DNA of 38,457 nt from a virus, in IMG/VR virus record IMGVR_UViG_3300044720_000008, positions 1 through 38,457 of that record. One strand, written 5' to 3'. How positions within the stretch are numbered: position 1 is the stretch's first letter; every line of letters starts with the position of its first letter. Below the pieces are notes generated by a model. The model was not told the DNA's origin and ran no database searches. It saw nothing but the letters and a program-made list of their open reading frames with translations. Position numbers and translations under genes: made by a program. This document shows, in pieces, positions 1,234 to 2,118 of this stretch.

Positions 1234-2118
1234 ATGAGTGTTACTGAAGCTTCCCCCATGAATGACCCGCAGGTTCTTAGTATGCTGGATAACCTCCGCC
1301 AGCTTTCTACTCAGATCAAGGCTATTGATGCCGAACTCGGTGTTGATGCTACCGGCCCTATTGCACAGCGTAACAAGATTGCTAGTCAGTACATTGAGCA
1401 GTATGGTACAGCACCTGAGTTTCAGGGTTTTCTTGACAAGATTGATGGTTATCTTGGAGGTATGAAGGACAAGCCGGAACTCCTGTCTGCTGTGTTTGTT
1501 GCACTTAACGATCGTATCTCCAAGAACTTTGGTAAGATCGTTAAGGACCAGCTTGACGCCGAAGTTGCTAAGCTCCCTAAGACTGAAGCTCCTACTATTA
1601 GTGACGAGCGCAAGACTGCTCTTGCTAACGAGCGTACCAAGAAGGTTGGTATCTTCAAGGCTCAGAAGGAGATGCTTAAGTTCTACGATGTCCTTACTCT
1701 GCCTACTGATATTGAAGAGCCGCCTGTTCGTAGGGGTTCTATTGGTCCTCGTGGCGCTCAGTTCACTAAGACCTATCAGTACTACCTTGACGGTAAGCTT
1801 CAGCAGCTTACTGACACTGATGGCGTTAAGTCTGATGCTACTCTCAGTAACATTGCCACGAAGCTCAAGAAGGAACTTAACTGGACCACGAAGGATCTTC
1901 GTGACAAGATCATGGCTCACCTTAACGTGACGGCTAACTCTAACAACGAAGTTGATCTGCCTGACACCTGGGAATTCCCCTTCCCGGCTCCGGTTAACAA
2001 GACGCTTCGTGCAGTCGTTACTACTACCCCTAGTGTCGATGAGTCAGACGACGGTGATGAAACCACTAACGGAACTGACGCTACTGACACTGGCGAAGAT
2101 ATGTTTGCCTCAGCTTGA
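1234..2118 (+). CDS. Highly codon-biased early protein of unknown function, 294 aa
   Basis: No family recognised. The N-terminal half is helical and charged (LDNLRQLSTQIKAIDAEL, heptad-like), the centre is basic, and the C-terminus is a low-complexity acidic tail rich in D/E/T that ends GEDMFASA. Every lysine codon is AAG, with strong use of GCT, CGT and CTT, unlike the later replication genes, which mix AAA and AAG; this points to very high expression. An acidic tail of this type is seen in single-strand binding and nucleic-acid chaperone proteins, but that is only a suggestion. The structured RNA array begins 2 nt after its stop with no terminator between, so the two are probably one transcript. 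Confidence 0.8.
   Translation: MSVTEASPMNDPQVLSMLDNLRQLSTQIKAIDAELGVDATGPIAQRNKIASQYIEQYGTAPEFQGFLDKIDGYLGGMKDKPELLSAVFVALNDRISKNFGKIVKDQLDAEVAKLPKTEAPTISDERKTALANERTKKVGIFKAQKEMLKFYDVLTLPTDIEEPPVRRGSIGPRGAQFTKTYQYYLDGKLQQLTDTDGVKSDATLSNIATKLKKELNWTTKDLRDKIMAHLNVTANSNNEVDLPDTWEFPFPAPVNKTLRAVVTTTPSVDESDDGDETTNGTDATDTGEDMFASA

Follow-up and report, generated by a model that had tools for sequence, protein, structure and literature searches.

What does a gene with the codon usage of a capsid gene do when it is placed directly upstream of an array of structured RNAs in the early region of a phage, and does its product serve those RNAs? The question is raised by gene 1234-2118 of the window, by which we mean the whole stretch of DNA analysed, a virus record of 38,457 bases. 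The window does not cover the whole genome, since its two ends are separated by ~7.4 kb of extra sequence in the near-identical contig IMGVR_UViG_3300048987_000005. By capsid and primase, the nearest named relatives are MW202795.1 (Caudoviricetes sp. ctEqG8, from Manatee Spring), the Microbacterium phage Shocker, Arthrobacter phages such as Jasmine, and the Cellulosimicrobium phage DS1. Past the array, the window encodes a PD-(D/E)XK exonuclease, a Sak4-like annealase, a protein with the C-terminal sequence DFGMEPF, a primase/helicase and a family A DNA polymerase. The DFGMEPF protein (4466-5137) has no library match; it ends like the tip of bacterial SSB and is probably the phage single-strand binder (ssb in the following). 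An earlier note on this DNA had proposed that an abundant protein and the RNAs are made together and form an RNA-protein complex or a decoy system. The features discussed are collected in Table 1.

Table 1. Features of the gene, its product, the RNA array and the putative target sites in the window.
Feature	Position	Strand	Basis or remark
Sigma-70-like promoter TTGACG-17-TACGAT, ahead of gene 1234-2118	1115..1143	+	9/12 matches
Codon-biased gene, predicted early, 294 aa	1234..2118	+	founding sequence of undescribed phage family
N-terminal helical region, residues 12-150, five helices	1267..1683	+	AlphaFold2, block pLDDT mostly 65-91
Linker, conserved P..RRG..GPRG; GKRGKR-type in most homologues	1711..1767	+	alignment
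Small alpha/beta C-terminal domain	1768..2025	+	alignment, AlphaFold2 model
Acidic, disordered tail	2026..2115	+	residues 266-294 pLDDT under 50
First array hairpin	2120..2161	+	
Element A: hairpin, loop GGCUAAACA	2169..2195	+	loop identical in L007
Long imperfect array hairpin	2201..2273	+	
tRNA-Met-like element, atypical T loop	2364..2435	+	T loop judged from sequence
Array hairpin, 13-bp perfect stem	2437..2502	+	
Element D: covarying outer stem	2509..2612	+	conserved CGUGUCA and ACUCGGGU
Element E: hairpin, loop AUGCCCUUUCA	2618..2653	+	loop complementary to ssb/primase RBS regions
Element F: covarying stems	2655..2708	+	conserved UUGAGCGC / CCCACGA / GCGAUC
Separate promoter TTGACA-17-TATACT, past array, upstream of exonuclease operon	2775..2803	+	promoter scan
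11-nt complement of E loop, directly before and overlapping ssb start	4457..4467	+	
10-nt complement of E loop, upstream of primase	5216..5225	+	

Codon usage and expression signals

The earlier note had described the gene as the most codon-biased of the early genes, with codon use restricted as in the capsid gene, and this was borne out by measurement. Its ENC of 36.1 is the lowest among the rightward genes, the neighbouring early genes having values of 45-56, and is close to that of the major capsid gene (22823-24037, ENC 35.0). All its lysines are encoded by AAG (25 AAG, 0 AAA; p ~1.6e-5, given a pooled AAG share of 0.64), as they are in the capsid gene (16 AAG, 0 AAA). Another strongly codon-biased gene, 29048-29554 (-), with an ENC of 35.4 and without a Pfam match, probably encodes an abundant virion protein.

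The strand opposite the gene is open for 270 codons without a stop, a long antisense frame that had also been noticed before. When the protein was re-encoded with average phage codons, the longest antisense run was 95 on average and 270 was reached in 0 of 1000 cases; by shuffling the gene's own codons, the mean longest run was 178 and 270 was reached in 1.3% of cases. The frame is thus explained for the most part by codon use, and a candidate antisense gene opposite 1210-1920 was dismissed for this reason. In all 15 homologues (see below) TTA is absent and CTA almost absent.

The bias is not peculiar to the window: the ENC of the homologue (28-48) was lower than that of the exonuclease of the same genome (42-60) in 15/15 cases, and lower than that of the primase in all 13 genomes in which the primase was measured. 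High abundance of the protein, predicted in the earlier note, is therefore likely to be a family-wide trait, as far as codon use can tell. The promoter ahead of the gene is of a kind for which ~2 sites are expected by chance in the region; most homologues have a TTGAC(A)-type site 39-117 nt upstream of their start, many of which are, taken individually, no more than modestly above background. In 10 of 15 cases a strong terminator-like hairpin follows within 120 nt of the homologue's stop. Taken together, the gene is best read as a dedicated, self-contained high-output unit, and from the type and position of its promoter we infer that it would be expressed early.

Promoter-like sites flank the unit formed by gene and array (1115-1143 and 2775-2803) and none was found by the scan inside the array, so that the two are probably co-transcribed, in agreement with the earlier suggestion that protein and RNAs are made together. 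Between the stop of the gene and the exonuclease gene no ORF reaches 60 aa; a 54-aa ORF (2715-2879) with cysteine pairs, a double zinc ribbon by a weak Pfam match, overlaps the promoter at 2775-2803.

The RNA array and its distribution

With the stop codon ending at 2118 and the first hairpin starting at ~2120, the gap is 1-3 nt, which agrees with the 2 nt spacing reported before. The region 2100-2740 folds at -256 kcal/mol, with z = -9.9 compared to shuffles. In L007 and L031, whose homologue is 49% identical to the window protein, elements A, D, E and F are kept in unchanged order. Counting pair changes in these four elements from hand-aligned arms, we found ~22 pairs changed on both sides and two positions broken, and the loops are largely identical. 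On account of these compensatory changes and of the constancy of the loops, the array is, by comparative base pairing, a genuine conserved set of RNAs.

Both array-bearing lineages contain an odd tRNA-like gene, which in L007 (5881-5953) has an irregular anticodon loop. A further region of L007 (6660-6796) resembles, at its two ends, the acceptor and the T arm of a tRNA (GGCAGAG ... CTCTGCCA), and more than 80 nt of other hairpins replace the D and anticodon arms. GOLLD and ROOL are large ornate phage RNAs found near tRNA genes, and GOLLD sometimes holds a tRNA (PMC12286853). The array is likewise a large structured phage RNA with a tRNA-like element; however, it differs from both in that it matched neither of them in Rfam, at the gathering score or even at E up to 5.

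Covariance models of D and F, applied to 39 loci, matched the window virus and the L007 lineage only, and both elements were missing in 14 other lineages with the protein; the exact F pattern, sought in 2.9 million viral contigs, was found solely in contigs of the window and L007 lineages. A single match to the D motif in a Frankia contig was taken as chance, the flanking stem being missing by eye. In MW202795.1 the protein UOF81961.1, annotated as 'hypothetical protein', is a true homologue of the window protein in the same early-region slot; unlike in the window, tRNA genes follow it, and D and F are missing.

This distribution bears directly on the proposal that the protein is dedicated to the array, as its partner in an RNA-protein complex or decoy system. 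Gene and array do share one apparent transcript in two lineages, and both are conserved there. On the other hand, the earlier note had named homologues regularly found without any array as a reason to abandon the idea, and this is what we observed: D and F occur in two of ~16 lineages, the 14 others have the protein without them, and hairpins of the E type are found also in phages devoid of the protein. As the protein regularly occurs without the array, a system of this kind is unsupported and we consider it highly improbable; the array is best explained as separate cargo in the protein's transcript.

The array RNAs could instead be regulatory or stable RNAs with a function of their own, carried by a strong transcript, with E acting as an antisense RNA on ssb and primase. 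We regard this as a real possibility that falls somewhat short of probable; as a reading of the array, it can stand together with the nucleoid-type reading of the protein given below. The E loop contains AUGCCCUUUC(A), whose complement, GAAAGGGCA, precedes ssb and primase in both array-bearing lineages, with 9-11 nt of complementarity (window 2618-2653, 4457-4467 and 5216-5225; L007 6083-6091, 8430-8438 and 9174-9182), and there are 3-4 hits per sequence, one being the loop itself, against 0.2-0.3 expected. However, GAAAGGG is also Shine-Dalgarno-like, so that such sites are partly expected and the match is suggestive only. The other conserved array loops have no comparable targets. Hairpins similar to E were observed past the homologue in several further lineages, and also ahead of the primase in phages without the protein, so that they do not link array and protein; the pattern of loop and target is not kept in the other lineages with such hairpins, and in distant lineages their own E loops performed no better than foreign ones.

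A more elaborate scenario, which we judge very unlikely, would unite all the parts: an undescribed array of covarying hairpins around a degenerate tRNA would be made from the strongest early transcript, its loops would regulate the replication genes ssb and primase in antisense fashion, and the abundant nucleic-acid-binding protein would be their chaperone or storage partner in the window's lineage.

Four other loci, L070, L071, L072 and L073, have a strong hairpin directly upstream of the primase, with 8-9 nt of the loop complementary to the Shine-Dalgarno sequence just downstream and with a covarying case (UGCCUUUC/GAAAGGCA vs UCGCCUUUC/GAAAGGCGA), which makes a translational switch possible. 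A general rule, by which the loops of hairpins upstream of the primase pair with the downstream Shine-Dalgarno sequence, was considered and fails outside this group.

The protein family and its architecture

Homologues were recovered from loci fetched via primase alignment, followed by an iterated profile search, and were later confirmed on whole records. They form a family of ~16 lineages of uncultivated phages, consisting of the window virus, L007/L031, MW202795.1 and 13 further records. All members have a helical N-terminal half, a basic linker and a small alpha/beta domain, and most of them an acidic tail. In the L015 virus a second, diverged copy lies elsewhere in the genome (L339 804-1658), and the L011 virus has another distant relative; both share this layout.

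The family is undescribed in any library. The window protein had no match in Pfam, PHROGs or PDB sequences, 16 family members searched against Pfam and PHROGs gave no consistent family, and a peptide-pattern search of the genome collection found nothing similar to the window protein. Single-protein tblastn and megablast searches in named phages returned nothing, or MW202795.1 alone. The syntenic genes of Shocker, Jasmine and DS1 were compared and are not homologous; by eye, Shocker 52 and the syntenic gene of DS1 have an HNH-type look.

The AlphaFold2 model of the window protein (pTM 0.39) gave merely helical look-alikes in Foldseek and VIA searches when used whole, with Z up to 7.8, as is usual for helical models, and no significant match for the C-terminal domain alone (Z up to 2.8). 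The description of a helical protein with an acidic disordered tail and an unrecognised family thus agrees with the model and with the empty searches; the search for remote homologues brought to light the family itself, but not a structural match from which a function could be derived.

In terms of charge, the family is acidic overall, with net values from -7 to -36 for the whole protein; the last 40 residues have a net charge of -8 in the window protein and between -7 and -23 in the 15 homologues for which it was calculated. Conservation is highest, instead, in a basic and glycine-rich stretch (RRG..GKRGKR). It corresponds to the linker, KRRGAxGKRGKR in its conserved form and of GGRPSG type in L013/L015; the window protein's own linker is no more than weakly basic.

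Possible functions of the protein

The reading that we tentatively favour, as possible though well below probable, is that of an abundant early nucleic-acid-binding protein of nucleoid type. The protein, probably self-associating, would coat, organise or otherwise protect the phage DNA at the onset of replication. The helical N-terminal half would serve assembly, and contact with nucleic acid would be made by the basic GKRGKR-type linker together with the small alpha/beta domain, and be tuned by the acidic tail. A strong host-type promoter of its own and favoured codons would ensure high early output, and the hairpin past the gene may end or stabilise the message. In the window's lineage, the RNA array would have been inserted, or have evolved, in the 3' part of the transcript, exploiting the strong promoter, and at least one of its RNAs, E, may control ssb and primase through base pairing at their ribosome-binding regions.

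Several observations are consistent with the nucleoid-type reading: the codon bias in 15/15 homologues relative to the exonuclease of the same genome, the sigma-70-like promoter upstream of most of them with the hairpin after 10/15, which suggest a self-contained high-output unit, the combination of conserved basic linker and acidic tail, and the diverged extra copies with the same layout in the L015 and L011 viruses. No homologue was found in 396 actinobacterial genomes, which fits a function in virulent phages. On the other side, DNA binding is not supported by any fold match, the protein is acidic overall and its linker in the window is weakly basic, and a protein with a single-strand-binder tip is already encoded at 4466-5137.

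The acidity could also suggest a decoy or DNA mimic by which a defence or restriction enzyme of the host would be saturated in the early phase of infection. T7 Ocr, a DNA mimic, is early, abundant and acidic, and such a role would suit a gene of early type, predicted to be highly expressed from a host-type promoter of its own, whose product is strongly acidic with a disordered acidic tail. However, the basic, glycine-rich nature of the most conserved stretch is unlike a DNA mimic, and the family is fixed in one slot of the replication module across diverse phages, whereas typical anti-defence genes come and go. Ocr lacks a basic conserved linker, and it was absent among the fold matches listed, which in itself is no proof. 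We consider a decoy unlikely.

The genomic slot lends itself to another explanation. All homologues stand ahead of exonuclease, Sak4, ssb, primase and pol, and this constancy, besides agreeing with the nucleoid-type reading, would be expected of a recombination or replication accessory, such as a mediator or a second single-strand binder working with the neighbouring exonuclease, Sak4 annealase and ssb, for which helices, a basic linker and an acidic tail would be fitting. Such a role appears quite doubtful to us: the gene's own promoter and the terminator-like hairpin separate it from the exonuclease operon, and Shocker, Jasmine and DS1 have the same exonuclease-Sak4-primase set without the protein. 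A factor for host takeover, binding RNA polymerase or the ribosome through its acidic tail, would account for the strong host-type promoter, the predicted high output and the fact that no nucleic-acid-binding fold was recognised; as the sequence has no similarity to known factors of this kind, we hold this to be rather unlikely.

Known nucleic-acid-binding proteins offer partial likenesses. The xenogeneic silencers Lsr2 and H-NS have an assembly region, a flexible basic linker and a small C-terminal domain, a general layout common to the window protein; they differ from it in that it has no Pfam match, is much larger and has an acidic tail. Pfam scans gave no match to the Lsr2 profile PF11774 among the family members, and no Lsr2 gene (PF11774) was found in the phages carrying a homologue, which is in line with the nucleoid-type reading. 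The p6 protein of phi29, a genome-organising, histone-like phage protein, has a disordered acidic C-terminal tail and had a novel fold when solved (PMC10899789). A tail of this sort is present in the window protein (residues 266-294), and p6 acts on the viral DNA as replication begins, as is proposed here. The differences are that p6 has 103 residues with a small alpha+beta core, whereas the proteins of this family have 250-300 with a large helical N-terminal half and a basic linker; Foldseek and VIA gave no significant match with the whole model (pTM 0.39) or the C-terminal domain, and the window protein resembled no described family in Pfam or PHROGs. T4 MotB, an early phage protein of obscure family that was shown to bind DNA tightly and non-specifically (PMC7827196), is a precedent for the nucleoid-type reading, although it has predicted KOW and OB-fold domains, which were not found in the window protein. 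Membership in p6, MotB, Lsr2 or Ocr is not claimed. An explanation of SAS/ESAS type (PMC3203893) was considered and not adopted.

A protein with an apparently dedicated promoter and optimised codons in ~16 environmental phage lineages is probably important for infection, and its family is a clear target for structural and binding work. The covarying RNA array of two of these lineages can be tested as an RNA system in its own right, with concrete candidate targets in the ribosome-binding regions of ssb and primase.
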